From positions 1 through 27,923 of the IMG/VR virus record IMGVR_UViG_3300025896_000154: a stretch of 27,923 nt of DNA. One strand, 5' to 3'. Shown piece after piece: positions 716-25,484 of this stretch. Each line of letters starts with the position of its first letter. The stretch's first letter is position 1. The notes beneath the pieces are model-generated. The model searched no databases and was not told the DNA's origin. It saw only the letters and a program-made list of their open reading frames with translations. The DNA comes from a virus. A program made the translations under genes and the position numbers.

Positions 716-726
716 TAAATATCATT
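716..726 (+). promoter_or_regulatory. T4-type late promoter, predicted leaderless start
   Basis: TAAATA at 716-721 is followed by five bases and then the ATG at 727. T4 late promoters (TATAAATA) start transcription about six bases after the octamer, so the predicted +1 is the A of the ATG. No SD sequence precedes this start. A second TAAATA lies at 707-712 but is not at this spacing. Confidence 0.6.
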
Positions 727-1353
727 ATGAACATAACATCTTTACCAGTTAAAATTACAACTCACATTGTGATCTCTGATGCTGATACAGGGGAAATCTT
801 GCGCGAAGGCCAGAATGCTATTCATCAAGAAAACATGAGTCAAATCCTGGCCACTGCACTTGCTCGCGGAACAAACAGCTTCATCAGCGAAATGCATTTT
901 GGTAAAGGCGCCAGCGTCACTGCAATTGACGGCTCAGTTTCTTACAGAACTCCCAATGTATTTGGATCAAATTCGTCCCTGTATAATCCCACTTACTTTA
1001 CAGTAGTTGATGCACAGGACTTGAACAATCTAGACCCCACTGCCAATAATCTTGCAGTGACACATACCACAGGAACAACTTATAGCAGTACTGTGGTAAC
1101 AGCAACATTAGATTACACTGATCCTGTCGCAAGCGACAGTGTGTTTAACATTGTTAACAGCACTGAAGACAGCTTAAATGCAACCACTAGTGTAGATGGA
1201 GAAATGGTTTTTGATGAGATTGCATTAAAAACAAAAGGAACTGCAGGTTTAAATTCTGGGAATTTGCTAACGCATTTCATTTTTCACCCAGTTGAGAAAA
1301 GCTACAATCAGCGTATACAGATCGTGTACACTCTAAAAGTTCAAGCCGGTTAA
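727..1353 (+). CDS. Putative virion structural protein
   Basis: A 208-residue protein. The N-terminus contains ITTHIVISDADTGEIL and the C-terminus a beta-rich segment ending in IQIVYTLKVQ. Alternating beta-strand composition, many Thr/Ser/Asn residues and the absence of catalytic motifs suit a tail or fibre-associated protein. It sits between the truncated structural gene and the tail-fibre-like gene on the same strand. The start is the ATG five bases after a TAAATA late motif, with no SD site. The structural assignment is by context; no specific family is recognised. Confidence 0.55.
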   Translation: MNITSLPVKITTHIVISDADTGEILREGQNAIHQENMSQILATALARGTNSFISEMHFGKGASVTAIDGSVSYRTPNVFGSNSSLYNPTYFTVVDAQDLNNLDPTANNLAVTHTTGTTYSSTVVTATLDYTDPVASDSVFNIVNSTEDSLNATTSVDGEMVFDEIALKTKGTAGLNSGNLLTHFIFHPVEKSYNQRIQIVYTLKVQAG

Positions 1354-1363
1354 ACCAAATTTA

Positions 1364-1377
1364 ACTAAATATACAAA
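1364..1377 (+). promoter_or_regulatory. Late promoter-like motif with an ordinary leader
   Basis: ACTAAATA (hexamer TAAATA 1366-1371) sits in the 51-bp gap before the 1405 gene. The predicted start is near 1377, giving a leader of about 28 nt that contains AAGGA at 1391-1395, nine bases before the ATG. Unlike the 727 gene, this one has a normal leader and SD site. Confidence 0.5.
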
Positions 1378-1404
1378 GGCATTAAGCCAAAAGGACATGA
1401 AGAA

Positions 1405-2478
1405 ATGGCATACGAAGTAAACAAAGCAAACGGTGAAGTATTGGTTAACCTGATTGACGGGGAAATTGACAATACATCAACCAGTTTAAATTTATTGGGC
1501 AAGAACTATCTTGGCTATGGCGAGCTGATCGCAGAAAACTTTGTTCATCTACTAGAAAACTTTGCAAGTAGCATTGAACCAATTAGTCCAGTAACTGGCC
1601 AAACATGGTTTGATACTGGCGAACGTAGATTAAAATTAAATGCTGATAATTCAAATTGGAAAACAATTGCATTCTTGGCAGCACAGAATTCTGTTCCAAC
1701 AATTGGTACATCAATTCGCGGTGACTTTTGGTACGATACTGCCAATAATGCCATTAAGATTTATACAGCCGACGTAACGTTACCTGGCACAAATGGTAAC
1801 GGTTGGATGAACGTTGGAGCATTCCAAGGAACTCGTGAAACTGCAACCGGTATGGCATTCTTGGACCTATTAGACATTACTAGCAGTTTACACAAAGTAG
1901 TTGCAATGTACGCCATGGGTGTATGTGTTATGATTATTAGTTCTGATGCTGACTTTACAATTGCTACTTCGCATGCTGTGCCTGGTTTTACTGAAATTGG
2001 TAAAGGCATCAACATGAACACCACCGGAAATGACTCAACAGCATTTAATCCAAATGCTTTTAAATTGCGCGGTATCTCAATGGAAGCTGAATTTGCTGAC
2101 GTTGCTGAGATCTATGTTGGCGATGCCACATACGAGCCAGGTACACTGGTGAGTCTGGGTGGAGAAGCAGAAATAACACAAACATCCTCATATGGTGATA
2201 CAAATATTTTTGGCATTGTTTCAACTCGTCCAGCTTACTTAATGAATGCACGACAAAAGCGTGAAAAGAATGCAATGCCTATTGCTGTTGCTGGTCGTAT
2301 TCCAGTTAAAGTAAAAGGTATAATCAACCGCGGCGACAGACTAATTGCAAGTGATGTTCCGGGTGTGGCACAAGCTGCTTCAGTAGATGCTCCGGCCTGG
2401 AGCATTGTTGGTCGTAGCTTAGGAAACTTTAGCGGAGAAGGCATCGGCAAAGTCGAAGCAACTATCGGGGCTCGTTAA
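1405..2478 (+). CDS. Tail fibre / virion structural protein
   Basis: A 357-residue protein with features typical of T4-like marine phage fibre proteins. The N-terminus (residues 1-50) contains VNLIDGEIDNTSTSLNLLG. Two copies of a W-(F/Y)-D-T module follow (TGQTWFDTGERRLKL near 64-79 and GDFWYDTANNAIKIY near 105-119). A C-terminal domain beginning near residue 230 (ADVAEIYVGDATYEPGTLV) resembles the terminal domain of many phage fibre or appendage proteins, ending in a PVKVKG...GDRL segment. Its likely role is in an appendage or baseplate fibre that contacts the host. The start is supported by AAGGA nine bases upstream. The structural class is fairly secure; the exact fibre identity is not. 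Confidence 0.75.
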   Translation: MAYEVNKANGEVLVNLIDGEIDNTSTSLNLLGKNYLGYGELIAENFVHLLENFASSIEPISPVTGQTWFDTGERRLKLNADNSNWKTIAFLAAQNSVPTIGTSIRGDFWYDTANNAIKIYTADVTLPGTNGNGWMNVGAFQGTRETATGMAFLDLLDITSSLHKVVAMYAMGVCVMIISSDADFTIATSHAVPGFTEIGKGINMNTTGNDSTAFNPNAFKLRGISMEAEFADVAEIYVGDATYEPGTLVSLGGEAEITQTSSYGDTNIFGIVSTRPAYLMNARQKREKNAMPIAVAGRIPVKVKGIINRGDRLIASDVPGVAQAASVDAPAWSIVGRSLGNFSGEGIGKVEATIGAR

Positions 2479-2480
2479 TA

Positions 2481-3920
2481 ATGTCAACGACTCCAACATA
2501 TACCCTTACGGTAGAAGTAGCAGGTAGAGGCACTGGAACAGTAACCAGTACTCCGCCTGGCATCAATGGGCCCGGGTCAGCAACATTTACAGCAGGAACA
2601 GTTGTTACTTTAACAGCAGTCCACGACACTGGTTGCAGATTTAATACCTGGTATGGCGATGACAATCGCCAGCCTGGCCCAACAGAAACTAGAATACGCA
2701 TGACTTCTGATAGGAGTATAACAGCAATATTCAATAGGTCCGTAGCTACTCCGGAAAAAGGCACACTATTGAGAATGGCCTGTGTTGGCGTTGACAAAGT
2801 TGGACATTATGCCAACGGCGAAGGCGAAGAATATACTGAAGTCATAACATATAATAGTATAGAGTGTGGCTATGTTGCTCCTGTACCAATTGACAGGGCA
2901 GACCCAACTGAACTGCAATCTGATAATTGGTTTAACCAATTGACTACGAATGTGAATGAATTATTTGGCGATATACACGAAGGCAAAGGCCCAAGCGAAG
3001 AAGCCGAAGTGCAGGATGAAATTCGTTGGGGCTGGGGCGGAGAAAATGTTGATTTGGTCAATCGTGGCCAGAAGATCACAGCCGTAAAGACTAATGAGCT
3101 TGTTAACCGTATTAACATCAGCACCCTGCGCACAAACAGTAGTGATCAGGAATTGGTCATTGTTGAACCTGGTGATAAAATTGATGTTGCTTTTTATAAC
3201 ACTGTAACAAACTTATTAGAAGGCGCAAAAAATTCTCGTAACGAAGTTGATCCTGCGTTAACATCTCTGTCAACTTTAATCACAGTTGTAAGTTCAGTGC
3301 CAGTTTGGGATAATCAATTAGAAAATGCAATACTTTTAAATTTTAACGGATATGAAAGTGCTCGACACTTTTTCAATGCAGGCGGTGATATACGTTTGTC
3401 TTTTTCAATAGCAGATGGCAGCGGAGCTGGTTACAGTACCTGGGGAGGAATCTTTTTGGACCAGGGTACTTTAAAATTCAATGTCAAGTCAATGAATAGT
3501 TTAAATCTTCGAGGCATTAGTCAAGAACGTGGCTTCGCAGAGTTAACATTAAACGAAGAATTATTGTATACTAGCCCAACTGGCGGCGGCGCCGGTTACG
3601 GTGGTTACGGTGGCTATGGTGGCTATGGTGGCTATGGCGGTTATGGCGGTTATGGCGGTTATGGCGGTTATGGCGGTTATGGCGGTTATGGCGGTTATGG
3701 AGGCTATGCTTCTAGTCGCTTAAAAGTTTACGGTAATATCAGTGGCGATCAACTTCGTTTACGTATGTTGCTGGACCATGCAGGCTTAGGAACCAGAGTC
3801 AACGGAACAATTACCATGACAGTTTCAATATCTCATCCATCCACAGTAACTGAACACGATGTAGAATTAGTGATTCCAACCCCATTGGTAACTGTTTTGA
3901 CGCCCTGGCAAGAAGTTTAA
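2481..3920 (+). CDS. Tail fibre-like protein with InlB-type repeat and GGY-repeat tract
   Basis: A 479-residue protein starting two bases after the previous stop. Residues about 5-90 match the divergent InlB B-repeat/Listeria-Bacteroides type module (TLTVEVAGRGTGTV, then a Gly/Pro turn, then FNTWYGDD and ITAIFN). The middle contains WFNQLTTNVNELFGDIHEG. A C-terminal region (about 290-479) looks like a beta-rich head interrupted by a 38-residue glycine/tyrosine repeat at residues 372-409. InlB-type modules and glycine-rich loops are both known in phage adhesins (glycine-rich segments occur at the tip of gp38-type adhesins of some T4-like phages), so host recognition is a reasonable inference. 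It may also be a baseplate or neck-associated protein. Confidence 0.65.
   Translation: MSTTPTYTLTVEVAGRGTGTVTSTPPGINGPGSATFTAGTVVTLTAVHDTGCRFNTWYGDDNRQPGPTETRIRMTSDRSITAIFNRSVATPEKGTLLRMACVGVDKVGHYANGEGEEYTEVITYNSIECGYVAPVPIDRADPTELQSDNWFNQLTTNVNELFGDIHEGKGPSEEAEVQDEIRWGWGGENVDLVNRGQKITAVKTNELVNRINISTLRTNSSDQELVIVEPGDKIDVAFYNTVTNLLEGAKNSRNEVDPALTSLSTLITVVSSVPVWDNQLENAILLNFNGYESARHFFNAGGDIRLSFSIADGSGAGYSTWGGIFLDQGTLKFNVKSMNSLNLRGISQERGFAELTLNEELLYTSPTGGGAGYGGYGGYGGYGGYGGYGGYGGYGGYGGYGGYGGYGGYASSRLKVYGNISGDQLRLRMLLDHAGLGTRVNGTITMTVSISHPSTVTEHDVELVIPTPLVTVLTPWQEV
3594..3707 (+). repeat. In-frame 9-bp tandem repeat encoding GY(GGY)12
   Basis: 114 bp encode GY followed by twelve GGY units. The 5' units use mixed codons (TAC, GGT GGC TAT), then seven perfect copies of GGCGGTTAT run from 3636 to 3698, closed by GGA GGC TAT. 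The gradient from diverged to identical units suggests expansion by slippage from the 3' side. The repeat keeps frame at any copy number because the unit is three codons. Confidence 0.95.
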
Positions 3921-3981: not shown

Positions 3982-4326
3982 ATGGATACACGCCTAAATG
4001 ATGCCTTGGCATTTGCCAACTATAGACTGACGCTACAAGTCCAGCGACTGAACATTGACGCACGAGTGAATGCAGCGTTAATTGTATCCTATCAGAATGC
4101 AATTTTTAAATCAAACCAAACTTTAATAGCATTTGTCGCATTGCGAGCCAGCAGATCCGACAGACTCTTGGTTGAGGACAATAGCGGAAACGTTATCCAA
4201 ATTGAAAATCCAAATGAATTCTTAGATGCGCTATTACTTGCATATGATTCTGCCCTGGAGTTAAAGCAACAAGAATTACAAAAATTAAAGTCTGCACGTA
4301 GTACTTCAAAAGTTGTTGGGCTGTAA
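3982..4326 (+). CDS. Conserved T4-like hypothetical protein
   Basis: A 114-residue protein that looks mostly alpha-helical, with a helical N-terminus (LNDALAFANYRLTLQVQ) and a C-terminal charged helix (ALELKQQELQKLKSA). The opening MDTRLNDALAFANYR resembles small hypotheticals that follow structural genes in T4-like marine phages. It is preceded by a hairpin carrying a late-promoter motif and followed after one base by the next gene. No function is recognised; a small late virion or assembly protein is possible. Confidence 0.6.
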   Translation: MDTRLNDALAFANYRLTLQVQRLNIDARVNAALIVSYQNAIFKSNQTLIAFVALRASRSDRLLVEDNSGNVIQIENPNEFLDALLLAYDSALELKQQELQKLKSARSTSKVVGL

Positions 4327-4327
4327 T

Positions 4328-5206
4328 ATGAGCACTAAAGGCTTTATGATGTTCGCTTACAATAACGAACAGTTGGACTACACTCAGCTGGCACTTGTGG
4401 CCGCGTATGCTTGTAAAAAATATATGCCAGATATTCCTGTGGTACTGGTAACCAATCAACAAAGTCTGGAGCATTGTAAAGAAACACATGGTACAGAAAT
4501 TATGGCCGCCGCCTGGGATGATATTATTGTAACAGACCCGGGCTATGAAAAGAACATGCGACTTCATCATGATGGTGCATACCATAGCTTCAACGCACAA
4601 TTTACCAACACTAACAAACACGACATTTATAATCTAAGTCCATTTGATGAAACTATTCTAATAGATACTGACTACCTGTGCGGCAACAACAATTTAGAAA
4701 AGCTATTTGGCAGTCAATACGATGTTGCAATGTACAGAGATGCTCGTAATTTACAAATGCAAGAACCATACACAACAGAACGTTGGCTACACTATGCTGG
4801 TGTTCGCATGTGGTGGAGTACTGTGGTGTACTGGCGCAAAAGTGAAGAAGCCACACACTTCTTTAATATTTGGACCGCGGTTAAAAAGAACTGGGAGTAC
4901 TATCGCTTCTTATATAAATTTCCGGGAACATTGTATCGTACAGACTACTCAGCTAGCATAGCCGCGCACATGTGCAATGGTTGGCAAGATGGCGGCTTCA
5001 TTGGAGAGATTCCCAATTATATGCGTTATCAAGATCAACGAGATGACATTGTAGAAGTCAAGGGACCTAACCATTGGGTTATGTTAAGCAACTTGCCCGA
5101 AGAGTGGAAAAACATGGTAGTTGAAATCAAAGGTGAAGATGTTCACTTGATGAATAAGAAAAGTATACTTCGTAACTACGAACGAATTATGAGTGAATTG
5201 GCATGA
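4328..5206 (+). CDS. Glycosyltransferase-like protein
   Basis: A 292-residue protein. The N-terminal half looks like a nucleotide-sugar binding alpha/beta fold: FMMFAYNN near residue 6, IPVVLVTN near 36-43, and a hydrophobic strand ending in a DxD-type motif, ILIDTDY, with Asp at 113 and 115. DxD motifs coordinate the metal and the sugar nucleotide in GT-A glycosyltransferases. The C-terminal half is rich in Trp and Tyr. The start is the ATG at 4328, one base after the previous stop; an in-frame TTG at 4313 would overlap the upstream gene. It opens the accessory island and overlaps the next gene by ATGA. The substrate is unknown. Confidence 0.55.
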   Translation: MSTKGFMMFAYNNEQLDYTQLALVAAYACKKYMPDIPVVLVTNQQSLEHCKETHGTEIMAAAWDDIIVTDPGYEKNMRLHHDGAYHSFNAQFTNTNKHDIYNLSPFDETILIDTDYLCGNNNLEKLFGSQYDVAMYRDARNLQMQEPYTTERWLHYAGVRMWWSTVVYWRKSEEATHFFNIWTAVKKNWEYYRFLYKFPGTLYRTDYSASIAAHMCNGWQDGGFIGEIPNYMRYQDQRDDIVEVKGPNHWVMLSNLPEEWKNMVVEIKGEDVHLMNKKSILRNYERIMSELA

Positions 5207-5907
5207 CAATACATATCATTGCGCCCCCAGGTTTTGATGAGCATGTTAAAATTACATCATTAGATGCAAAGTTGGTTAATGCTTCTGTTGAACTAAATGT
5301 TATCAATGTTGAAGCAGAACCATACAGTCAAATTAAACTCTTAGCTGGACTTGATCTTGCGCCAGGTGACATTATTTGCATGGCAGGAACTTGTACTCGA
5401 CAATCGACGACTGCAATTGCAGAACTTGCTGTTGCTAAACAAATAAATCTCATGCCCGGGGCAGGCATAGATCACCGCGGCGTGCCAATTGAACCACATA
5501 AAATAAATGCCAGGGCTGCTATTGAAAAGAATAATAATATTGCATGGCCGTACTTAATGGTCATTGGTGATCCTGCCTTGGCTAAAAAGAGCTTTGAAAT
5601 ACTGCCCGAGTTAGACAGCACTGTATATTGGCCTAACTATACTCCTGAGCCCGAGCAGGTGAGAATTGAACACTTGTTGGCCGCAGTGGCAGCGACTGGA
5701 TTGTGGGAAACTCCTGACTGGTTTAAAATTGTTGACCTAAGTGTTAGAGATTTAGAACTTGCTCCTGTGATGTATGCCAGCCATATGTGGCATGATTGGA
5801 TTGCATTTTATCCAGCCAACGGAAATTTCAAATTGGAAAATCATAGTCAATTGCATCCAGTCTGGTTGGCTGGCAGTACAAAGCCTTTGGAATACTGGAA
5901 AACATGA
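5203..5907 (+). CDS. Hypothetical protein
   Basis: A 234-residue protein coupled to its neighbours by ATGA overlaps on both sides. The N-terminus has alternating hydrophobic strands (TIHIIAPPGF, VELNVINV, GDIICMAGT) that suggest an alpha/beta fold. The C-terminal half is rich in Trp and ends in a PVWLAGSTKPLEYWKT tail. I do not recognise the family. Translational coupling with a glycosyltransferase-like gene on the left suggests a shared pathway, but nothing in the sequence gives a reaction. Confidence 0.5.
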   Translation: MTIHIIAPPGFDEHVKITSLDAKLVNASVELNVINVEAEPYSQIKLLAGLDLAPGDIICMAGTCTRQSTTAIAELAVAKQINLMPGAGIDHRGVPIEPHKINARAAIEKNNNIAWPYLMVIGDPALAKKSFEILPELDSTVYWPNYTPEPEQVRIEHLLAAVAATGLWETPDWFKIVDLSVRDLELAPVMYASHMWHDWIAFYPANGNFKLENHSQLHPVWLAGSTKPLEYWKT

Positions 5908-6878
5908 GCGAGCTAAAATTTGAACTTCGCCGCCGCGACAAGAAGAGGCACGAGTTCTGGTGTGTGTATTATGACGAGTATTCGGGCAAGATTAAATCAA
6001 TCGAACCCGGCAGTGTTCAAGTGGCTGGCACCCTTTTAGTTGACTATGCTCGTGTAAAGAAAATATTAGCAGGGGAAATCAATCAAAATGATTACAGAGT
6101 TGCACTCAATGAGAATCTGGGCGCACTTGACTTGGTTGATATCAAACGTCCAAGTGAATACAGAAAAAAACAAGTACATCATGGATGGTTATCGTCAGCG
6201 GAAACAGATGGCTATTCCCCTTCTCCGCTACGTGCAACTCTTTACTTAGATACTGGTCACATTAGATTTGAAGCAAGTCGTATATGGACTACTAAAACTA
6301 AACAAAGCATGGACAGAAATGTGCTTGGGGATAACATTCCATTTTTTATCAGCGACGTTGAAGATCCACACAACTTGTTTGGCAATGACGAAATTAATTT
6401 AGCTGAAATAATTGAGCGAGGATTTTGGGAAAAGAGGTTGTGGGCATTCATGGACCATGATGTTATACAAAAAATATTGTATCATGGACAAGAGATACGC
6501 ATTAATATGCCACCAGTGGCACCGGGCCTAACCTTGTCCCGGACTGCCCAACATTCTCAATTTTCTGAAATCATTGATGAATGCACTGTGCTTAGTAGAT
6601 CGGGGCCCGGTCTACATCTTAGTGTATTTTCTAAGAATGGCTCACTGTGGGTACAGAGCCACTATTCAAAAGGCTGTGCAATTGATCAGTTAATCGGAAA
6701 CTTATCAGTTGCATTACTATCACAGCCAGACCCGGACTACTTTGTAACCTGGGCTGAATTACCGGCACTGATGCTTAGACAACACCATCCGTTTGAATTG
6801 ATTTCAAATTGGCCTGACCATGTGGTCCCAAGTTTGTTATATAAAGCAAACAACTTAGATATTGGAGTAATTTCTTGA
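5904..6878 (+). CDS. Hypothetical protein
   Basis: A 324-residue protein with a basic N-terminus (FELRRRDKKRHEFW) and no clear membrane segment, signal peptide or catalytic motif. It starts by ATGA overlap with the preceding gene, and its own stop overlaps the TTG start of the next (TTGA). Its place in the middle of glycosyltransferase-like genes suggests an accessory role in the same process. I cannot assign a family. Confidence 0.5.
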   Translation: MSELKFELRRRDKKRHEFWCVYYDEYSGKIKSIEPGSVQVAGTLLVDYARVKKILAGEINQNDYRVALNENLGALDLVDIKRPSEYRKKQVHHGWLSSAETDGYSPSPLRATLYLDTGHIRFEASRIWTTKTKQSMDRNVLGDNIPFFISDVEDPHNLFGNDEINLAEIIERGFWEKRLWAFMDHDVIQKILYHGQEIRINMPPVAPGLTLSRTAQHSQFSEIIDECTVLSRSGPGLHLSVFSKNGSLWVQSHYSKGCAIDQLIGNLSVALLSQPDPDYFVTWAELPALMLRQHHPFELISNWPDHVVPSLLYKANNLDIGVIS

Positions 6879-7846
6879 AAACCCCTATTACAGAATTTGA
6901 TGTAGTATTCATCAGCTATGATGAGCCAAATGCTGATGAGAATTATGCAGATCTATTGGAAAAGTGCCCTTGGGCCAAGCGCAGTCATGGTGTTTATGGT
7001 AGTGATGCTTGCCATAAAGCCGCAGCCAAACTAGCCGAAACAGAACGATTCATTACCATTGATGCTGATAATAAAGTACGAGCAGACTTCTTTGAAATGG
7101 AACTGGATCTAACTAAATTTGATCGTAGTGACGTACTGAGTTGGAGCGGTAAAAACGTAATCAATGGACTGGTATACGGCAATGGCGGCGTAAAACTTTG
7201 GCCAGTCAAAGTGGTTGAGCAAATGCGTACACATGAAGCAGTTGATAGTGGCGCAGGTGCTGTGGACTTTTGCTGGGACATTCACTATCATCAGTTAAAC
7301 AACATTTATAGCGATGTGTACAACAACGCAACACCGTATCAGGCATATCGTGCAGGCTTCCGCGAAGGTGTCAAATTGGCACTACACGATGGTAAGCCAA
7401 TGGACTGGAGACAAATTGCGGCACGTAATCACTTTAAAAATCATCGTAGACTACTAGTTTGGATGAGTGTTGGTCAAGATGTGCAGAACGGCTTGTGGGC
7501 CATGTACGGCGCACGCCTGGGCTGTTATCTAACTAATTTGCGTAAAGACTGGGACTACAAGTTAGTAGCAGACTTTGAATGGCACAATCAATACTGGTCA
7601 GAAACAGTTGCTCCTATGTTTGCCGGTGACGAAGAACGGTGTCCTACCTCAAAATACTCATGGAGTCGAACAAAGCTCATGGCCGAAACTGTAAAGTTAG
7701 GCAAATTACTACGACAGGATCTACATCTAGACATTGCTGAATTAGATGAAGTTGGCAGCAAGTTCTTTAAAGCAAGTTTCTTTAACCCACATCGTTTGGC
7801 ACCACACATCAAAGAAAGCGATGTGGAACAGTTTATTGCTGAATAA
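6875..7846 (+). CDS. Glycosyltransferase-like protein, paralogue 1 of 3
   Basis: A 323-residue protein. The start is TTG, overlapping the previous stop as TTGA, with GGAG seven bases upstream and no other usable start for about 70 codons. It contains FDVVFISYDEPNAD near 8-21, a DxD-type TIDADN (Asp 63 and 65), YGNGGVKLWP and FREGVKLAL. All of these recur in the genes at 8708 and, more weakly, at 7846. The layout (short strand, conserved His-Lys-Ala-Ala segment, hydrophobic strand ending in DAD, then GNGG) fits a GT-A nucleotide-sugar transferase. The donor and acceptor are unknown. Three tandem copies imply local duplication. Confidence 0.6.
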   Translation: MKTPITEFDVVFISYDEPNADENYADLLEKCPWAKRSHGVYGSDACHKAAAKLAETERFITIDADNKVRADFFEMELDLTKFDRSDVLSWSGKNVINGLVYGNGGVKLWPVKVVEQMRTHEAVDSGAGAVDFCWDIHYHQLNNIYSDVYNNATPYQAYRAGFREGVKLALHDGKPMDWRQIAARNHFKNHRRLLVWMSVGQDVQNGLWAMYGARLGCYLTNLRKDWDYKLVADFEWHNQYWSETVAPMFAGDEERCPTSKYSWSRTKLMAETVKLGKLLRQDLHLDIAELDEVGSKFFKASFFNPHRLAPHIKESDVEQFIAE

Positions 7847-8721
7847 TGTTAGACGTATTTTTTATTTCAATGGGCGAAAAAGGAAGCGAAGCCAATTGGC
7901 AACGCTTGCTTTCTTTTGCACCACATGCAAAACGTGTTGACAATGTTAAAGGCATTTACAACGTGCATAAGGCATGTGCGCAGTTAAGCACAACAAAAAA
8001 CTTTTATGTAGTAGATGCAGATGCATGGGTGCTTGATGGGTTCAAGTTCCATTGGGAGCCTGACGCTAAAACATTGCATTGGAATATTCCCGAAACAGAA
8101 TGTGTACTAGTTTGGCCAAGTTGTAATCCTGTAAACGGCTTAGAATACGGATATGGTGGCATTAAGATGTTCCCTCGCGGACCGTTTCTAGAAAACAAAC
8201 CCTGGGACATTGACTTATCAACTACTATTGGCCGTGCCACAATCAGTAAAGAAAAAGTTAGCTGCGAAACAAGATTCAATGCAACACCTGAAAGTGCATG
8301 GATTGGTGCGTTTCGCGAATGTGCCAAACTGGCATCGCTATCAATGATTAAAAGTAGGATTCGACGTGCCACTGCACTTAAAAATACAGAGCTGGATAAA
8401 TTAGCAGCTCATATCAACTCTCATGCTGACTGGGACAACGAAAGCCGCGCAACGTATCGTAAAGTTAAAACTATGTTAGCGTCAGACACCTATGATAAAC
8501 AAATTGATGTTTATTCATATTGGGAAGAGATTGAAGAATGTAGTCGCAAACGACTGCATTGGGCTGTAGTTGGAAGCCAAGCGCATAATGGACAGTATAG
8601 CATATTGGGAGCGCAAGCAGGATCAAATTTTGGTTTACAATACAGCGATGATTTATCAATGTTGGATAAAATCAATGATTGGGATTGGCTAAAAGAGGAA
8701 TTTAAAAATGTCAATGTTTAA
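7846..8721 (+). CDS. Glycosyltransferase-like protein, paralogue 2 of 3 (divergent)
   Basis: A 291-residue protein starting within the TAATG that ends the previous gene. It keeps the family signatures in altered form: LDVFFISMG at the N-terminus, VVDADAW with Asp 57 and 59, YGYGGIKMFP in place of YGNGGVKLWP, and AFRECAKLAS in place of GFREGVKLAL. It lacks the DEPNAD segment of its two neighbours. It is the most diverged of the three tandem copies, which suggests a changed substrate or an older duplication. The last codons overlap the next gene by 14 bases. Confidence 0.6.
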   Translation: MLDVFFISMGEKGSEANWQRLLSFAPHAKRVDNVKGIYNVHKACAQLSTTKNFYVVDADAWVLDGFKFHWEPDAKTLHWNIPETECVLVWPSCNPVNGLEYGYGGIKMFPRGPFLENKPWDIDLSTTIGRATISKEKVSCETRFNATPESAWIGAFRECAKLASLSMIKSRIRRATALKNTELDKLAAHINSHADWDNESRATYRKVKTMLASDTYDKQIDVYSYWEEIEECSRKRLHWAVVGSQAHNGQYSILGAQAGSNFGLQYSDDLSMLDKINDWDWLKEEFKNVNV

Positions 8722-9679
8722 CGTAAAACCAAAAAAACAAAATACTAGAAATACCATTGCAGATATTCCTGTGGTATTTCTAAGTTTTGATGAGCCCAAC
8801 GCAGATCTACATTGGAACTTGTTACAGGAAGTGACCCCGCATAAACGTATTGCTCGTGTGCATGGAGTGGTGGGATTTGATGCAGCGCACAAGGCAGCAG
8901 CCGCACAATTCCCTCTCAGCGACTATGTTATCACAGTAGACGCTGACAATCAAGTTGATCCTAAGTTTTTTACCAAACGTTTGCCTGAAAACATGAATGG
9001 ACAAGTTAGCTATACTTGGGGCGGACGCCAAGTTACAAATGGCTTGATGTATGGCAACGGTGGATTAAAAATGTGGAGCACAGAACATCTTGCTAATATG
9101 AAAAGTCACGAGCTTGCAGATGAACAACGTGATGCTGTAGACTTTTGCTGGGATTTTAATCGCTATAAAGAGTTGCCTGGCTGCTTTTCCAATGTGTATA
9201 CCAATGGTAGTGCTTACCAAGCATTTCGTGTTGGCTTCCGCGAAGGCGTAAAGCTATCAATGGAACAAGGCCGTGTGCTAGCATTTGATGAATGGTCAAC
9301 TACAATGCACGCCGCAAACTATCAACGATTAATAACTTGGATGACAGTGGGTGCAGACGTCAAGCATGGCATGTGGAGTGTATATGGAGCTCGTCTTGCA
9401 GTTAAGTTGTTGCAGTATGACAACTTTGACTTTGTAAATATCAGGGACTATGCCTGGTTCAATGACTTTTTTAATTCGCATGCAGCAGCCGATCCAGCTA
9501 AAGCCAGCAAGTCATTGGGCAAGAACATCAGCGAAGGCATTGGTTACATCTTGCCTGATTTTGACGATGAGCAAAGTGCATTTATTAAACAGATTCAATT
9601 GCACCCAGCAAGGCCATTGACATATGAAGATGTAGAATGGCAAACTAATTTAAGCATGTATGGATGGTTCCGTGGATAA
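8708..9679 (+). CDS. Glycosyltransferase-like protein, paralogue 3 of 3
   Basis: A 323-residue protein, same length as paralogue 1. After a basic 20-residue lead it has PVVFLSFDEPNADLHW, a conserved AAHKAAAAQF segment, VITVDADNQ (Asp 78 and 80), YGNGGLKMWS and GFREGVKLSM. Paralogue 1 matches it in the same order, including a later WMTVGADVKHGMWSVYGARL block. The start at 8708 has AGAGGA upstream; an in-frame ATG at 8714 is the alternative. It overlaps both neighbours, which supports translation as one unit. Glycosyl transfer is inferred from the DAD motif and fold pattern. Confidence 0.6.
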   Translation: MSMFNVKPKKQNTRNTIADIPVVFLSFDEPNADLHWNLLQEVTPHKRIARVHGVVGFDAAHKAAAAQFPLSDYVITVDADNQVDPKFFTKRLPENMNGQVSYTWGGRQVTNGLMYGNGGLKMWSTEHLANMKSHELADEQRDAVDFCWDFNRYKELPGCFSNVYTNGSAYQAFRVGFREGVKLSMEQGRVLAFDEWSTTMHAANYQRLITWMTVGADVKHGMWSVYGARLAVKLLQYDNFDFVNIRDYAWFNDFFNSHAAADPAKASKSLGKNISEGIGYILPDFDDEQSAFIKQIQLHPARPLTYEDVEWQTNLSMYGWFRG

Positions 9680-10841
9680 AAATAACGAATTAAGATCAGC
9701 ATTACTATACTTTGTTGACGAAGCAATTGGCTATAGACACAGCTTGCATTTCCTTCGCTGTTGGTTAGAAACAGGAGAACAATCTAAATTAGAAGGATTG
9801 ATACTGGAAGTTGGACGAGAAAACTTTGTTGACTTGCAACCACTGCTTGACTCAGTTAATAATTCAGCTGACACAAGTGGAACAACAGCTCTGCAGAATT
9901 TTATATACACTCGTGGTATTCATCGGCCAGAGGCACCAGAAGTAAAAATTTCACCCATGCCTAACCTCGATGATAGTATCCCAGAATATGTTGAAGGCAA
10001 TGCTTGGGTCATGCACTCTTGGGTAGAAGCAAATACACACAAGAATTTGTCCCCATATTTTGCAATAGCAAAAGCATATGGAGTTTTCCAGGAAGCTAGA
10101 GAAGACTTTATTAAGATTTTTGATCTATTAGAACTGATGTTTGGCAAAGACACTACATTGTTTTCTGCGGTAAAGGACAATGATATTGAATTATTGGGCC
10201 AGCTGTTATCTAATAATTATTATCCAAGTTGTAGTAAGCATATCAATGCACTTGCACTTTCATTGACAACACATCCAGATTTGAATTGGAAAGACGCACT
10301 AAGTAGAAATCAAATTAAAAGCAAGCTGTGGCTCATTGATAAAATGAATGAGCTTGATGTGTTGCCCAAGCACAAAAGCAACATGTTCAATGAGCATACT
10401 AATGTGTTGGTGGTTGGCGGATGGGTTGGCATGCTGCCATTCTTAGCAGACATGAAAGGCAAGTTTCTTGATACAGTAACAAATATTGATATTGATGAAA
10501 CAGTACATGCTGCATCGGCCAGTTTAAACTCGATTACAGATTCAACGTTTAGGACCAGTGGCAAAGATGTTCGTAAACTAAACATTGAAAAGTACAACAA
10601 GCCTATTGTGATTGACACTATTGTTGAACACTTTGAAGATCACGGAGAATGGGTCAAAACATTGCCCTCCACAGCCACTGTGATATTACAAGGTAACGAC
10701 ATGTTTGATGTACCTGATCATGTCAACTGTCATACAACATTAGAGGAATTTATTGAGTCATGTGGGTTAAATAACATTATCTGGGCCGGAGAACTGAATC
10801 TCTATAAGTGCACCAGATATATGGCCATTGGCACCACATGA
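9660..10841 (+). CDS. Methyltransferase-like protein with an unknown N-terminal domain
   Basis: A 393-residue protein. The N-terminal 230 residues are helical and unrecognised. The C-terminal part has a class I SAM-methyltransferase pattern: VLVVGGWVGMLPF at 249-261 (glycine-rich motif I), an acidic strand end at NIDID 275-279, then a strand with IVIDTIVEHF. The canonical GxGxG is altered to GGWVG. The start at 9660 overlaps the previous gene by 20 bases; the GTG at 9672 is a possible alternative. It ends by ATGA overlap with the 2OG-oxygenase-like gene. The acceptor (sugar, lipid or protein) is unknown, and the methyltransferase call is moderate because the motif is not classical. Confidence 0.5.
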   Translation: MDGSVDKNNELRSALLYFVDEAIGYRHSLHFLRCWLETGEQSKLEGLILEVGRENFVDLQPLLDSVNNSADTSGTTALQNFIYTRGIHRPEAPEVKISPMPNLDDSIPEYVEGNAWVMHSWVEANTHKNLSPYFAIAKAYGVFQEAREDFIKIFDLLELMFGKDTTLFSAVKDNDIELLGQLLSNNYYPSCSKHINALALSLTTHPDLNWKDALSRNQIKSKLWLIDKMNELDVLPKHKSNMFNEHTNVLVVGGWVGMLPFLADMKGKFLDTVTNIDIDETVHAASASLNSITDSTFRTSGKDVRKLNIEKYNKPIVIDTIVEHFEDHGEWVKTLPSTATVILQGNDMFDVPDHVNCHTTLEEFIESCGLNNIIWAGELNLYKCTRYMAIGTT

Positions 10842-11356
10842 ATGACAACCGTTTTAGACGACACACCAATTTTAAAGTAGATCTTGTTAGATTAAAAGCA
10901 GAAGCTTATACGCTGATGTATGACTATCCAAACGGAGTTTATCACACTCAGCGCTCACTACAAACAGATGGATCTGATGACTGGGATATCAGCACTGGAT
11001 CAAAACCAGACATTGATGAGTCAATTTGGGACAAATTACATCCTAAATTAGTTGGCACCTGGTGGGAGGAGTTTTTTGCCGCATTGCCTTTTAAAGTGTA
11101 CAGGGCCCGCCTGCTAACTATACAGCCACGTACTTGCTATAGTATACATGTTGATAGAACGCCAAGAATACATATTGCAATTGATACACATCCGCAAGCA
11201 AGATTTATTTTTACTAACCCTCCGGCCCTTCGCCATATTCCGTCTGACGGCCATATATGGTGGATTGATACCACAAAAGAACACTCGGCAATGAACGGCA
11301 GCTTAAAGCCAAGAATTCATTTTGTTGCTTGCCTGGATAACACAGACCCTAATTAG
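10838..11356 (+). CDS. 2-oxoglutarate/Fe(II) oxygenase-like (aspartyl/asparaginyl beta-hydroxylase type)
   Basis: A 172-residue protein starting by ATGA overlap. It shows an HxD motif (HVD at 104-106) and a distal EHSAMNGS with His 149, followed by Arg 159 in KPRIHFVACL. HxD...H plus a downstream Arg is the iron- and 2-oxoglutarate-binding set of this superfamily. The arrangement R-x-H-I-A-I after HxD and W-W-I-D before the distal His resembles Asp/Asn beta-hydroxylase-like proteins. The likely reaction is hydroxylation of an amino acid side chain or small molecule. The substrate is unknown. Confidence 0.6.
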   Translation: MNDNRFRRHTNFKVDLVRLKAEAYTLMYDYPNGVYHTQRSLQTDGSDDWDISTGSKPDIDESIWDKLHPKLVGTWWEEFFAALPFKVYRARLLTIQPRTCYSIHVDRTPRIHIAIDTHPQARFIFTNPPALRHIPSDGHIWWIDTTKEHSAMNGSLKPRIHFVACLDNTDPN

Positions 11357-11371
11357 ATCATACATACAGGT

Positions 11372-11986
11372 ATGACATTAGAAGTTATTCATATCTGCGC
11401 AGAACACTTTAGTAGTGTAGAGTCCCTATACAACGATTTCTTATTGGAAATAGCCAATGACCCGTTGCCGGCCTTGGTTAATATGGGATATGATCTTCCA
11501 GCAGGACTAGGATATCTTGCTAACAATAAATTAAGATGGACCGAACAAACTGGCCAAATTGATTTGCTTTTAGACAATGGTAGGATTGTAGGAGTTAGCG
11601 CAGTTGAAACAAGTTCGCTTTCAACTGCATTTGGTAGCGGTGGCAATCGTTGTTGGGTACTGCCAAAGTATCGCATCAACAATGAAATTACAAAGTACTT
11701 GCTGGCATCAAATTTACAATGGTGCAAGGACCGCAATCATGCAGGGATGATCCTGACATTTAACGATTACAACAAATGGATCTTTACCACAATTAAACGA
11801 CGGGTACACGGACAAGCTGGAGCACTTGGCCCAGTCTGGAGTGCATGGTGGAATGACTGTGTTCCGTTTGAGCAACAATTAAATGTGTTTAATACACCAC
11901 AGTGGGCAGTGGTAAAACCCCTGGCCGATATTGACGCAGTACTTGACGGCATGAATAATATTGAAAAAGAATTTAGACTAGCATGA
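11372..11986 (+). CDS. GNAT-like N-acyltransferase
   Basis: A 204-residue protein. The core IDLLLDNGRIVGVSAVETSS (about 63-82), followed by CWVLPKYRINNEITKYLLASNLQWCKDRN, fits the beta4-loop-alpha3 part of a GNAT fold, where the acyl-CoA pyrophosphate is bound. The C-terminus is Trp-rich. A 15-bp gap separates it from the preceding gene, with only a weak CAGG before the ATG. It ends by ATGA overlap with a PP-loop ATPase gene. The family call is from fold pattern only; the acyl donor could be acetyl-CoA or a longer chain. Confidence 0.45.
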   Translation: MTLEVIHICAEHFSSVESLYNDFLLEIANDPLPALVNMGYDLPAGLGYLANNKLRWTEQTGQIDLLLDNGRIVGVSAVETSSLSTAFGSGGNRCWVLPKYRINNEITKYLLASNLQWCKDRNHAGMILTFNDYNKWIFTTIKRRVHGQAGALGPVWSAWWNDCVPFEQQLNVFNTPQWAVVKPLADIDAVLDGMNNIEKEFRLA

Positions 11987-14458: not shown

Positions 14459-15135
14459 CAGTACGTCTCGTATCATATTCACAACCAACAGAAGAATTTA
14501 AAAACGAAGGCATTGTTGATGCACAAGAGCTTGTTGCTTTTTGTGCGCGAGTCAGCAATCCTACCAATCAGTACAACACGGAAACGTCAGAAAAACTGAT
14601 CAACTATCTTGTCAAGCATGCACATTGGAGCCCACTTGAAATGGCATCTGCGTGTGTAGAGATTACAACTACTCGCGATATTGCACGACAGATCCTGCGG
14701 CATCGCAGTTTTGCATTTCAGGAGTTTAGCCAACGTTATGCAAACCCTACGGAGGACTTAGGCTTTGTTATTAGAGACGCACGCCTACAGGATACAAAAA
14801 ACCGTCAAAACAGTGTAGACTTAGACTTAACCGATGCTGATCAGCGTGAATTAAACAACTTGTGGGTTGAAAAACAACAGGATTTAATTCGCCAAGTAAA
14901 AGATACATACGACTGGGCTATTAGTAACGGTATTGCAAAAGAACAAGCACGTTCAATTTTGCCAGAAGGTAATACAGTAAGCCGTTTGTATATGAACGGA
15001 ACATTGCGTAGTTGGGTACACTTCATTGAATTGCGTAGTGCAAATGGCACACAGAAAGAGCATCAATTAGTTGCTCTTGCTTGTGCCCGTGCTATTGCAG
15101 CCATTTACCCAATGGCTAATAATTTAGTCGCCTAA
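14455..15135 (+). CDS. thyX: Flavin-dependent thymidylate synthase ThyX
   Basis: A 226-residue protein of the usual ThyX length. It carries the ThyX signature RHRSFAFQEFSQR at 82-94 (RHRx7S), the HAHWSPLEMA segment near 55-64, and a C-terminal RSWVHFIELR block. ThyX makes dTMP from dUMP using methylene-tetrahydrofolate, FAD and NADPH, and many marine phages carry it for DNA synthesis. It is coupled by ATGA to the desaturase gene, an odd place for a nucleotide gene. Its 3' end overlaps the convergent asparagine-synthase-like gene by 12 bases. Confidence 0.93.
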   Translation: MTVRLVSYSQPTEEFKNEGIVDAQELVAFCARVSNPTNQYNTETSEKLINYLVKHAHWSPLEMASACVEITTTRDIARQILRHRSFAFQEFSQRYANPTEDLGFVIRDARLQDTKNRQNSVDLDLTDADQRELNNLWVEKQQDLIRQVKDTYDWAISNGIAKEQARSILPEGNTVSRLYMNGTLRSWVHFIELRSANGTQKEHQLVALACARAIAAIYPMANNLVA

Positions 15136-16855: not shown

Positions 16856-17395
16856 TTATGGTATGTTTTCCAATGGAATATCATTGATAAACCGAATACT
16901 CAGCATTAGCCGTGGACTGTTACTTTTGTTTTCAATGTGATGCGGGATATCAATCTTGACAACAGTAGGCCTGTCAATTATTTTAGTTGCAACCAGTAGA
17001 GGTTCCTGGCGCCAATTGATTTTGAGGTATTTGATAGTCTTAAATGGACTTTTAGTTAGAAAGAAATCACCGTCATACCAGTACATTGGGCCAGTCTCGC
17101 AATTTAGGATAGGAAGATTGAGTGCTGTGTTACTTGCATTGGTTCGTTGAACATTAAAACCGTCTACATGCAAGTCTTGGACAAAATTAGCATCATTGAT
17201 AAACATTATGGCTGTTTTAACTTTAACATCAAACCCCAGCGTATCTGCAATGTCCTGCTCGACTAAGTTGCTGATGTATGCTAAATCTTCTCCACTAAAA
17301 ACCTTTGCAGTGGTAAATTTGCCATTCCATTTACTCGAACAGAATTTCTGTATAGCCGGCCAACTTGGTAGATTGATTTCTTTAAAGTATTCCAT
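16856..17395 (-). CDS. 2-oxoglutarate/Fe(II) oxygenase-like protein
   Basis: A 179-residue protein from the ATG at 17395. It has HVD at 76-78 (HxD), a distal His at 152/153 in IPHHIEN, and Arg 162 in SPRLMLSIRF, the iron and 2-oxoglutarate ligand set. A Trp/Tyr-rich MYWYDGD lies between them. An in-frame ATG at 17434 would add 13 residues, but a TAAATA motif exactly five bases before 17395 favours the shorter form. The late motif suggests late expression. It is divergent from the fatty-acid hydroxylase gene and downstream genes follow on the same strand. The substrate is unknown; a lipid or amino acid side chain is possible. Confidence 0.6.
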   Translation of the reverse strand: MEYFKEINLPSWPAIQKFCSSKWNGKFTTAKVFSGEDLAYISNLVEQDIADTLGFDVKVKTAIMFINDANFVQDLHVDGFNVQRTNASNTALNLPILNCETGPMYWYDGDFFLTKSPFKTIKYLKINWRQEPLLVATKIIDRPTVVKIDIPHHIENKSNSPRLMLSIRFINDIPLENIP

Positions 17396-17396
17396 A

Positions 17397-17410
17397 CCAA
17401 TATTTATTGG
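17397..17410 (-). promoter_or_regulatory. Late promoter in a small dyad, predicted leaderless start
   Basis: On the minus strand the dyad CCAATAAATATTGG places TAAATA (17406-17401) five bases before the ATG at 17395. The arms CCAAT/ATTGG can be extended by a G-U and a U-A pair, reaching the A of the start codon. No SD site precedes either candidate ATG. Confidence 0.6.
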
Positions 17411-17433: not shown

Positions 17434-17444
17434 TAAGTACTAGT
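17434..17444 (+). promoter_or_regulatory. Variant late promoter, predicted leaderless start
   Basis: ATAAGTA (hexamer TAAGTA 17434-17439) is followed by CTAGT and the ATG at 17445, the same five-base spacing as the TAAATA starts with one A-to-G change. No SD site is present. It lies back to back with the minus-strand late motif at 17401-17406. Confidence 0.4.
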
Positions 17445-17903
17445 ATGGAACATATTATTGCATTTTTAAGCTGGACACTGTACCTTTATATTATACATCG
17501 TGTTATTCACGCCGTGGGTTTAAAATTCTTCCCACTGGCATTCAAGGCGCATGCTGATCATCACAAGTATATCAATACAAATGAACAAACCAAATGGCAC
17601 TGGAATAATTTGTTTTTGTTTAATGATACATGGACCAGCACATTAGATTTATGGCTTACTGAAGTTGTTCCAACACTGGTGTTTAGCTGGGTGACTGGCT
17701 ACTGGTGGATCAGTGTATTTTACTATCTATGGGCTGCATTGGTCCAAGAAACAATTGAACATAACCCAAAGTTCAATGCATATCCGTTACTGACAAGTGG
17801 AAAGTGGCATTTGATTCATCATCGAACTACCAATTATAACTACGGACTGTTCTTCCCAATTTGGGATATTTTATTTAAAACTCACGTGCCAATTTCAAAT
17901 TGA
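17445..17903 (+). CDS. Fatty-acid hydroxylase / sterol desaturase family protein
   Basis: A 152-residue membrane protein with the histidine clusters of the fatty-acid hydroxylase superfamily: HRVIH at 18-22, HADHH at 36-40, EHNP at 105-108 and HLIHH at 122-126. Hydrophobic helices lie at about 5-18 and 75-102. These di-iron enzymes hydroxylate or desaturate acyl chains, sterols or carotenoids. At 152 residues it is short but close to the compact bacterial members. The in-frame region upstream of 17445 overlaps the opposite-strand gene and is not used. It is the only plus-strand gene between two minus-strand blocks, and its 3' end overlaps the convergent gene by 22 bases. With the desaturase at 13559 it suggests acyl-chain tailoring. 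Confidence 0.8.
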   Translation: MEHIIAFLSWTLYLYIIHRVIHAVGLKFFPLAFKAHADHHKYINTNEQTKWHWNNLFLFNDTWTSTLDLWLTEVVPTLVFSWVTGYWWISVFYYLWAALVQETIEHNPKFNAYPLLTSGKWHLIHHRTTNYNYGLFFPIWDILFKTHVPISN

Positions 17904-19809: not shown

Positions 19810-19903
19810 AAAATATCTCCTAAGTTAAAAAGATGGAAGTCTTCCGCAAATACTTATAGCACACATTACCTTAGGGTATAGCCAAAACTACTTGGCAATG
19901 TGG

Positions 19904-20761
19904 TTAACCAGGTATGATTCTTATTTTTTTGCGATCTTGTTCACTTCTGCACTGATTAACTGTGCAAGGAAAGTGCTGGGCAGGTGGTGTCCATTGTGAA
20001 TCAAACACATTGTAGTGCTCGTTCCTGCCGCCACATTGACTATAAGACACAAAGCCTTTGGGGTTTATATGCAACCAGTCAACCCCAGCATAGCAGGGTG
20101 CTCCGGTATACACTGGACTGGTATCGTTGACAATGGACAAATCGTAATACGCTGGCGGTACTATTTTAAACTCATGATCGTCTGGTAACCCATTTATTCT
20201 ATTCAAATCAACTTGATTGTATCCACGATATAAATTGCCGCCACGATCATGCAATAGTTTTTCATTGCAGTTGTAACCCCGGTCTCTAAAGTACTTGACT
20301 CGTTCCCTGGCTTCAAAAATACCGCCGGGTTCTAATGGAATCACAATGCTAACAGCAGTATTCTTTTCTTCGCACTGCTCTAATATAAAGCCAAACACAT
20401 CATCGTTTTGCCAAGAGTGATATGTTAGCTTGACCTGATCAATTAAGTTTGCTACAGCATAATAAGAAAACCATGTATCATCACCACTGGTATCTAATCG
20501 TATGATGCTGTCCTGCTCTTTGATCTTTTTTAAAATAGTACTGAGATGGGGAAAATGCAATGGTTCGCCACCACTGAGCTTCCAAAGTATTTTAGAGTGA
20601 TGTTGGTACCTAGTGCTTTGCAACTTTTCAATTACTGATAGATACTGATCCACAGGTCGATCTACTGTACCACTACGATACCCAGAGTCACAATAGGCAC
20701 ATTGAAATTTGCAATATGCATTTAGTTCCCAATTAACTTCGGCGTAGTCTAGTTCTATCAT
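19904..20761 (-). CDS. Radical SAM protein with SPASM-like C-terminus
   Basis: A 285-residue protein from the ATG at 20761. CKFQCAYC at 17-24 is the CxxxCxxC motif that binds the SAM-cleaving 4Fe-4S cluster, and WKLSGGEPL near 60-68 is the GGE motif. The C-terminal region has at least four more cysteines (CYAG, SQCGG, PCTVNQC), which suggests a SPASM/Twitch-type domain with auxiliary clusters. Such enzymes modify peptides or carry out sulfatase maturation and other radical chemistry. The longer reading frame back to 20986 would overlap the VWA gene, and a TAAATA motif five bases before 20761 supports the shorter start. No obvious peptide substrate gene is adjacent. Confidence 0.8.
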   Translation of the reverse strand: MIELDYAEVNWELNAYCKFQCAYCDSGYRSGTVDRPVDQYLSVIEKLQSTRYQHHSKILWKLSGGEPLHFPHLSTILKKIKEQDSIIRLDTSGDDTWFSYYAVANLIDQVKLTYHSWQNDDVFGFILEQCEEKNTAVSIVIPLEPGGIFEARERVKYFRDRGYNCNEKLLHDRGGNLYRGYNQVDLNRINGLPDDHEFKIVPPAYYDLSIVNDTSPVYTGAPCYAGVDWLHINPKGFVSYSQCGGRNEHYNVFDSQWTPPAQHFPCTVNQCRSEQDRKKIRIIPG

Positions 20762-20766
20762 ACACG

Positions 20767-20774
20767 TATTTAAC
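20767..20774 (-). promoter_or_regulatory. Late promoter, predicted leaderless radical SAM start
   Basis: On the minus strand, GTTAAATA (hexamer 20772-20767) is followed by CGTGT and the ATG at 20761. There is no SD site. A strong terminator lies just upstream, so this promoter would be the main way to transcribe the radical SAM gene. Confidence 0.6.
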
Positions 20775-24247: not shown

Positions 24248-24256
24248 AGTGTTACT

Positions 24257-24285
24257 ATTATATGGCGATCTGGCCCAGAAGTCAA
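24257..24285 (-). promoter_or_regulatory. Sigma70-type early promoter with a near-leaderless start
   Basis: TTGACT (24285-24280), 17-bp spacer, TATAAT (24262-24257). Nine bases separate the -10 from the ATG at 24247, so the leader would be about three bases. Confidence 0.8.
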
Positions 24286-24334
24286 CCTGTTTTTGGCTCT
24301 TTCTGAGTCAAAAAGTGTTGTATTTTTGCAACTA

Positions 24335-24763
24335 TTAGCGGTTTGCTAGGTCTCTTGCGTGTCTTAGTACTTGACTCATACGACCAAAGTTTATACTGGC
24401 CAATTCCAGCAGTAAATCAACTGGTTTGGTTGCTATACTTGCCATACCAAATGCAATTTCTCCCATGTCTGCAAAGTATTTGGCATTGGGCCATTTAGCT
24501 TGTTTGAGTTGCCAAGCATCAATTAATAAACATTCCTCGCCTACTGAGCGTAGGTCAATGCGTTTAGTTAAGCCGGGTTTGCTTTGTGCAGTCAGCAGTT
24601 TGATGGCAATTGGCTCGTCCCATATATCAGTGCGTTCAAACGTCCGTGCTATAGTATGAACAAGGAATGCTTCAACGTCAGGCTGCAAATATGTTTTGCT
24701 AATACCCTGCGCTTCAGATACTAATTCCCATCCTGCTTGAACATACGGTTGCCAATGCTGCAT
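24335..24763 (-). CDS. Hypothetical protein
   Basis: A 142-residue protein, mostly helical, with a C-terminal SINFGRMSQVLRHARDLANR. No catalytic motif is seen. The ATG at 24763 has no SD. It lies five bases after TAAATA and is itself part of a 6-bp inverted repeat, which predicts late leaderless translation. It follows two coupled hypotheticals on the same strand. The function is unknown. Confidence 0.6.
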   Translation of the reverse strand: MQHWQPYVQAGWELVSEAQGISKTYLQPDVEAFLVHTIARTFERTDIWDEPIAIKLLTAQSKPGLTKRIDLRSVGEECLLIDAWQLKQAKWPNAKYFADMGEIAFGMASIATKPVDLLLELASINFGRMSQVLRHARDLANR

Positions 24764-24779
24764 AGAAATATTTATGCAG
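24758..24779 (-). promoter_or_regulatory. Late promoter in a hairpin whose arm holds the start codon
   Basis: On the minus strand CTGCAT (24779-24774) and ATGCAG (24763-24758) form a perfect 6-bp stem. TAAATA (24774-24769) begins at the end of the left arm and runs into the loop, five bases before the ATG. Late-initiated RNA would begin at the ATG and lack the left arm. Confidence 0.6.
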
Positions 24780-24798
24780 AGTTTGGAAGTTACCGGCG

Positions 24799-25182
24799 TT
24801 AACCTTTGCCTTGCACTTTGCGGCTGAGTCCATCAAGCCATAGTAATATATCATCGTTCACTAAACGGATTTCCATTGCATCTTGCTCACCAAATATACG
24901 AAAGTATCCGGCACCGTGATAGTACGGCCAATCTAAATGTTTTTCTAATCCTATTAGGTGCCCGGGCTTGGGACTCCATCCTGGCGGGCATTGATATGAC
25001 CAATATCGAAAATGCAACTTCATCAACTCCCAGCCGAAGCTTGTAAGCCGTAACCCCTTGTGCTTACCAGGTTGATAGTTTTTGAAAATTGAATACGGAG
25101 TTATCTTGGTGTTTTCCCAGATAGCCGGCAGCGGATACTGAGTCAAGTACTCAGTTATCTTTGTAGCTAGTTCCTTGCTCAT
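24799..25182 (-). CDS. Conserved T4-like hypothetical protein
   Basis: A 127-residue protein. The segments ENTKITPYSIFKNYQPGKHKGLRLT and a later LHFRYWSYQCPPGW resemble small hypotheticals of T4-like marine phages. The start overlaps the preceding gene by 32 bases, and AGGGA lies about 11 bases upstream, so translation is probably coupled. No motif indicates a function. Confidence 0.6.
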   Translation of the reverse strand: MSKELATKITEYLTQYPLPAIWENTKITPYSIFKNYQPGKHKGLRLTSFGWELMKLHFRYWSYQCPPGWSPKPGHLIGLEKHLDWPYYHGAGYFRIFGEQDAMEIRLVNDDILLWLDGLSRKVQGKG

Positions 25183-25462
25183 TGATTTTGCGTCCCTGCT
25201 TTAACTCTACAACACTAAAGTCTGTGACTTTGAATAACTTGTTCATCTTATCAGCCAGGTTAAATGCATGCCCTGGATTAGAGAAACTTACTTTTTTATA
25301 TTTTGGTCCCGGATAGCTGATTAGGCTATTCAAGGTGCGAAGATTAATAGGCTTGTCTTTATAGAACACAGCATAGATTGCATCGGCAGCAAGAACTTCT
25401 TCACTTTTATAAGTTCTTGGATCTGTGTGGGTTAATAGGATGTTGGGTTTGGGTCGGCTCAT
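25151..25462 (-). CDS. Conserved T4-like hypothetical protein
   Basis: A 103-residue protein from the ATG at 25462. An in-frame TTG at 25477 would add five residues but lies inside the promoter loop and is not used in my reading. The segments PKPNILLTHTDPRTYKSEEVLAAD, PGPKYKK and FSNPGHAFNLAD resemble a protein conserved in T4-like marine phages. A late motif five bases upstream and a 9-bp stem that includes the start codon suggest late-only translation. The function is unknown. Confidence 0.65.
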   Translation of the reverse strand: MSRPKPNILLTHTDPRTYKSEEVLAADAIYAVFYKDKPINLRTLNSLISYPGPKYKKVSFSNPGHAFNLADKMNKLFKVTDFSVVELKQGRKINEQGTSYKDN

Positions 25463-25484
25463 ACTTTTATTTATCAAAAGTATG
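25460..25484 (-). promoter_or_regulatory. Late promoter in the loop of a perfect 9-bp hairpin holding the start codon
   Basis: On the minus strand CATACTTTT (25484-25476) and AAAAGTATG (25468-25460) are perfect inverted repeats around the loop GATAAAT. TAAATA occupies 25473-25468, and the ATG at 25462 is in the right arm, five bases after the motif. Read-through RNA would bury the start codon; RNA begun at the late promoter would not contain the left arm. Confidence 0.65.

Follow-up and report, generated by a model that had tools for sequence, protein, structure and literature searches.

The window analysed here is a 27,923-nucleotide stretch from the IMG/VR virus record IMGVR_UViG_3300025896_000154, and it contains six genes whose ATG lies exactly five bases downstream of TAAATA or its variant TAAGTA. 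The elements and the genes they precede are listed below; "late", "leaderless" and +1 are predictions throughout.

716..729, plus strand: TAAATA+N5+ATG putative late element, predicted +1 at 727
727..1353, plus strand: predicted leaderless gene, relative of virion/structural genes (33% identity to an ESI-MS/MS-detected protein of PA5oct; phrog_11259)
17434..17447, plus strand: TAAGTA+N5+ATG putative late element, predicted +1 at 17445
17445..17903, plus strand: predicted leaderless gene, fatty acid hydroxylase family (PF04116)
17393..17406, minus strand: TAAATA+N5+ATG putative late element, divergent from that at 17434, predicted +1 at 17395
16856..17395, minus strand: predicted leaderless gene, no family found
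20759..20772, minus strand: TAAATA+N5+ATG putative late element, with a terminator-like hairpin and T-run immediately ahead of it, predicted +1 at 20761
19904..20761, minus strand: predicted leaderless gene, radical SAM-like
24761..24774, minus strand: TAAATA+N5+ATG putative late element, predicted +1 at 24763
24335..24763, minus strand: predicted leaderless gene, no family found
25460..25473, minus strand: TAAATA+N5+ATG putative late element, predicted +1 at 25462
25151..25462, minus strand: predicted leaderless gene, 59% identity to a PA5oct protein of unknown function

The original prediction, made by reading the window without database searches, had located five TAAATA-N5-ATG sites and the TAAGTA variant, and all of its coordinates were correct. 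Its estimate that chance would give well under one match also held: five matches were found against 0.49 expected (sd 0.69), and none of 100 shuffles reached five. When spacings of 0–60 were scanned in the window, a clear maximum appeared at five bases (5 matches vs. at most 2 elsewhere). The TAAGTA at 17434, followed by the ATG at 17445 five bases on, was the only TAAGTA-N5-ATG in the window. The SD motif was absent from all six starts, as had been claimed, and the genes at 1405, 19549, 19809, 22031, 23666 and 24022, said to carry good SD sites, all had one, that of 22031 being the weakest. The motif, its exact spacing and the lack of SD are thus direct observations. A gene caller based on coding potential and blind to promoters selected the same ATG at five of the six sites and placed the start of 17395 18 nt upstream. 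Two near matches with a four-base spacing, TAAATA ahead of 26789 and TAAGTA ahead of 15432, were rejected as chance occurrences, being antisense or in frame inside another gene.

A megablast search of the window against cultured phages returned no match. The window MoxR ATPase shared 49% identity with its counterpart in the jumbo phage PA5oct, and IMG/VR held about 80 related loci, mostly close, including records of 285, 178 and 125 kb. The window therefore belongs to a freshwater jumbo phage related to PA5oct (Arenbergviridae) and not to a Straboviridae relative of T4, which qualifies its initial description as T4-like. A more distant group, at about 55% identity, served as a second test set. 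Positions 4313–15135 (plus strand) were occupied by tightly packed, often overlapping metabolic-looking genes beside virion genes, including desaturase-like and ThyX-like genes and apparent paralogues around 6875–9679. The desaturase had relatives at 27%–32% only, mostly in Cytophagales, and no host was assigned. A long GYGGYGG repeat lay within a gene at 2481–3920 (plus strand), which virion genes adjoin.

Conservation of the layout in orthologues was shown directly. Both motif and spacing were kept in 19 of 20 distinct sequences for 24763, in 11 of 13 for 20761 and in 5 of 6 found by homology for 727, where the exception was a 33%-identity match without an ATG at that place. The five-base spacing occurred in 11 of 17 distinct orthologues of 17395, in 11 of 21 of 17445 (with 6 more at four bases) and in 18 of 32 of 25462, the others of which include N5-ATC-ATG or an SD leader. 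The flanks diverged while orthologues of most window genes retained the motif and spacing. In far relatives of 25462, the arrangement GATAAATAAGTAT-ACAGGAGACATAC-ATG retains the box, and an SD leader separates it from the ATG; judged from sequence alone, this is likely a natural switch between leaderless and SD-led designs. Six other orthologues of this gene (L007, L014, L025, L038, L076 and L078) carried TAAATA-N5-ATC-ATG or N5-ATA-ATG, in which the ATG is displaced by exactly three bases. In these, +1 could conceivably fall on the AUC or AUA before the AUG, giving a non-AUG start or a three-base leader.

The genomes of relatives were scanned for every hexamer at every spacing ahead of ATGs with long open frames. 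In the 285-kb record, TAAATA at five bases ranked first (12 vs. 0.47 expected) and TAAGTA at five ranked third (10 vs. 0.43); in the 178-kb record, TAAATA at five again ranked first (10 vs. 0.25). In these two records, the relatives G001 and G002, it was thus the top hexamer-by-spacing signal, level with or above the SD hexamers. Pooled counts of TAA(A/G)TA with an ATG five bases on and an open frame of ≥ 60 aa exceeded background in G001 (23 vs. 1.5), G002 (15 vs. 0.7) and G003 (8 vs. 0.5) and, within the distant group, in G008 (10 vs. 0.8) and weakly in G010 (4 vs. 0.7). Values of p for spacing five in other clade genomes went down to 1e-19, although orthologues are not independent and significance pooled across genomes is inflated. 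Absence of such genome-wide enrichment had been named beforehand as a refutation, and the prediction survived this check on the relatives. Among 158 open contexts, the triplet five bases past TAAATA was ATG in 96 (1.5 expected), and neither GTG nor TTG was among the most frequent triplets.

The clade element can be written G(A/N)TAA(A/G)TA, with the box at −11 to −6 relative to the ATG in 59 aligned sites, +1 itself being predicted. The aligned sites gave a TG-n-TAAATA consensus resembling an extended −10, and no conserved −35 was found upstream of the 59 sites. The reasoning from the T4 late octamer required correction: the full TATAAATA had no exact match in the window, its one-mismatch matches were at chance level, and only the core TAAATA is common to both. 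The base at −1 was a pyrimidine (T or C) in 70 of 74 aligned sites compared with 43% of other genes in the same groups (Fisher p 1e-19), in which A was favoured at −1. Bacterial RNA polymerase usually prefers a pyrimidine-purine start. An SD was present in 4 of 46 leaderless-layout genes, as against 384 of 735 other genes.

The genomic context of these genes was also distinctive. Only 7% of leaderless-layout genes followed a same-strand gene with a gap under 10 nt, compared with 51% of other genes, and 28% were divergently arranged compared with 6%. Their first-in-unit position, at the head of transcription units, is thus an observation. Upstream terminators were clear at some sites and were not used as evidence because they were not enriched over other gap-preceded genes. 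The products included a portal protein (49% identity to that of PA5oct), a gp25-like baseplate wedge and head/virion proteins. Others were enzyme-like (radical SAM and fatty acid hydroxylase), and the late timing of the set is therefore only inferred.

A gene for a gp55-type late sigma factor, lying outside the window fragment, was found in five of eight long relatives (G001–G004 and G010). Its product matched phrog_12791, "sigma factor for late transcription", at E-values of 1e-87 to 1e-91 (best 2.7e-91), matched the family of T4 gp55 itself at 1e-23 to 1e-26, and was 45% identical to the PA5oct protein so named. The presence of this gene in relatives is established; that the factor reads the box is likely but inferred. 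Searches of the relatives for the T4 clamp family phrog_223 gave no match, which is weak evidence since the control was silent. A bS21 ribosomal protein was not found in them, and this route thus yielded no phage candidate for a leaderless-translation factor.

Not all late genes share the leaderless layout. SD leaders precede the major capsid, sheath and neck genes, and in several of these cases the same motif seems to drive expression; the proposal of systematic leaderless late expression accordingly held only in part. Two such arrangements lie in the window.

1366..1404, plus strand: leadered late promoter (predicted), contrast case, TAAATA at 1366–1371, predicted +1 at about 1377
19810..19856, minus strand: probable leadered late promoter, TAAGTA at 19856–19851, leader with TAGGAG, ATG at 19809

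The leader before the ATG at 1405 contains a GGC-n5-GCC hairpin and AAGGA, a layout also present in G001, G002, G006 and G007, and that at 19809 is repeated in G001, G003, G005, G006 and G007. Several predicted transcripts start right at the SD, as in the neck gene with TAAATA-gtcct-GGAGACACCCT-ATG. For boxes upstream of SD leaders, a purine stood six bases past the box, matching +1, in 50 of 70 cases; this set was chosen by position only and will include chance motifs. As a separate observation, some leadered late mRNAs (1377–1404 and those of G001, G002, G006 and G007) seemingly open with a small hairpin, GGC-n5-GCC or similar, before the SD.

By far the most economical reading, and a likely one, is that a late promoter of the phage has its +1 on the A of the ATG. 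TAA(A/G)TA would be its −10-like box (about −11 to −6), read by host RNA polymerase carrying the phage gp55-type late sigma factor. Where this promoter abuts a late gene, as it would in one set, the A of the ATG would be the first transcribed base; the resulting mRNA would be leaderless and translated via its 5′-terminal AUG without SD pairing. In the other set, the same box would lie about 16–40 bases before the ATG and yield a transcript with a short SD leader. Leaderless expression is thus probably one of two designs served by the same promoter. The central claim of the original prediction, a leaderless late mRNA starting at the ATG, is supported from sequence alone; no transcript 5′ ends have been mapped, and both the +1 position and leaderless translation remain inferences. 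Support beyond that available to it came from the −1 pyrimidine, orthologue conservation, first-in-unit position, the late virion genes and the gp55-type sigma in relatives.

T4 late promoters, which use the gp55 sigma, lack a −35 and have a TATA-type box located one helical turn upstream of +1 (PMC2988020), a layout that the element described here fits if its predicted +1 is correct. In T4, Syn9 and P-SSM2, however, the box lies roughly 13–35 bases before the ATG, whereas here the predicted +1 coincides with the ATG. SD motifs dominate in T4, with no significant peak at five, and T at −13 is rare here (4 of 59 aligned sites). No clear genome-wide peak at five was found in T4, Syn9, S-TIM5, phiYS40, P-SSM2 or PA5oct. 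PA5oct is among the closest cultured relatives and has the late sigma in common with the window clade, but it shows the leaderless form at few genes: the annotated starts 84079, 144985 and 49602 (minus strand), and a fourth site at 180252 (minus strand), in frame and 15 bases inside an annotated gene. Methylophage Melnitz had only three such sites. In the cultured Pelagibacter phage HTVC008M (NC_020484; loci L163–L170), unexpectedly, TAAATA-N5-ATG was the top signal (12 vs. 0.65 expected); all 12 ATGs were annotated starts, including those of virion genes that we take from the annotated products to be gp2-, gp3-, gp25- and gp48-like. ATGs with this layout lie, for example, at 75830, 19456, 31132, 49760 and 18916 (minus strand). 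Phage Mosig had 7 sites against about 1.2 expected, gp2- and gp3-like genes included. Both are T4-type Kyanoviridae with the leaderless layout at late virion genes, as in the jumbo clade, although their consensus is TATAAATAGT (often TATAAATAGT-n3-ATG in HTVC008M) and their host (SAR11) is known. Late-promoter prediction has been published as unsuccessful for pelagimyophages (PMC7029224), and no report of leaderless late genes in pelagiphages was found in the literature searched. Systematic leaderless middle and late mRNAs are known from the Thermus phage phiYS40 (reviewed in PMC3594737), which differs in its promoters, its unrelated host and its lack of a TAAATA spacing peak. In Deinococcus-Thermus, a −10 box within a few bases of the ORF, on its upstream side, gives leaderless mRNA (PMC12340547), but this layout belongs to a cellular housekeeping sigma and not to a phage late system.

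Several other explanations were weighed. The element might instead act in the translation of longer mRNAs, for instance as an A/U-rich site for the ribosome or S1, as its position directly ahead of start codons without SD would allow. This is very unlikely given the exact spacing of five, the −1 pyrimidine, the unit-start genes and the divergent pairs; other genes carry the same box at different distances, ahead of SD leaders, and the far relatives of 25462 keep it with the leader in between. It could alternatively be argued that the promoter is real but the ATG is merely an initiator-like sequence (TATG at +1), with the true start codon downstream. T before the ATG is indeed very common, some orthologues have N5-ATC-ATG, and the PA5oct orthologue of 25462 has TAAATA-N5-ATG but is annotated as starting at an SD-preceded codon 22 bases further on, in another frame. 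Nevertheless, coding potential and orthologue alignment from the first residues fall on these ATGs, as do the GenBank starts in HTVC008M and PA5oct, and this view is also very unlikely.

A less remote but still unlikely possibility is that the host housekeeping sigma reads the box as a −10 variant, in which case the start would remain leaderless. The extended −10-like consensus favours this, as does a TTGACA-N17-TAnAAT promoter that also adjoins an ATG, at the RNase H gene; against it, the late set has no −35 hexamer upstream, virion genes are among the targets, and the late sigma gene is conserved. Chance in A/T-rich intergenic DNA deserves mention as the pattern was picked after the sequence had been seen. 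It is practically ruled out by the recurrence of the spacing in other clade genomes at the p values given above, and PA5oct and P-SSM2 are richer in A/T yet lack a comparable peak.

The late promoter starting transcription at the ATG is thus retained as the preferred reading. Leaderless mRNA as such is already known. No report of leaderless late promoters in gp55-type phages was found in the open-access literature searched, a weak result as most subscription papers were not covered. If the reading is true, leaderless translation can be coupled to T4-type late transcription, a textbook system, and aquatic phages make use of this, among them cultured phages that infect the abundant SAR11 bacteria. 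Annotated starts and maps of late promoters would be corrected where standard prediction failed, and the question would arise of how bulk late virion protein is made without SD pairing. The prediction can be tested in the cultured phages HTVC008M, Mosig and PA5oct. A bolder reading, which we consider unlikely, is that phages with gp55-type sigma factors repeatedly evolved a two-class late programme, one box giving leaderless and SD-led mRNAs, with a late change in ribosomes or initiation factors selecting between two virion gene sets; the two lineages in which it would have arisen or been retained, freshwater jumbo phages and pelagiphages, are far apart.

A promoter of another type was observed at the RNase H-like gene at 26790 (minus strand), where TTGACA-N17-TACAAT is followed by the ATG five to six bases on. 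Judged from its sequence, transcription from this sigma70-type promoter would apparently be leaderless too, and the arrangement is conserved in relatives. In the pooled set, 29 sigma70-type sites had a spacing of 5–6, apparently mostly from one orthologue group, and a second peak lay at spacing 9 (17 sites), as at 24247.
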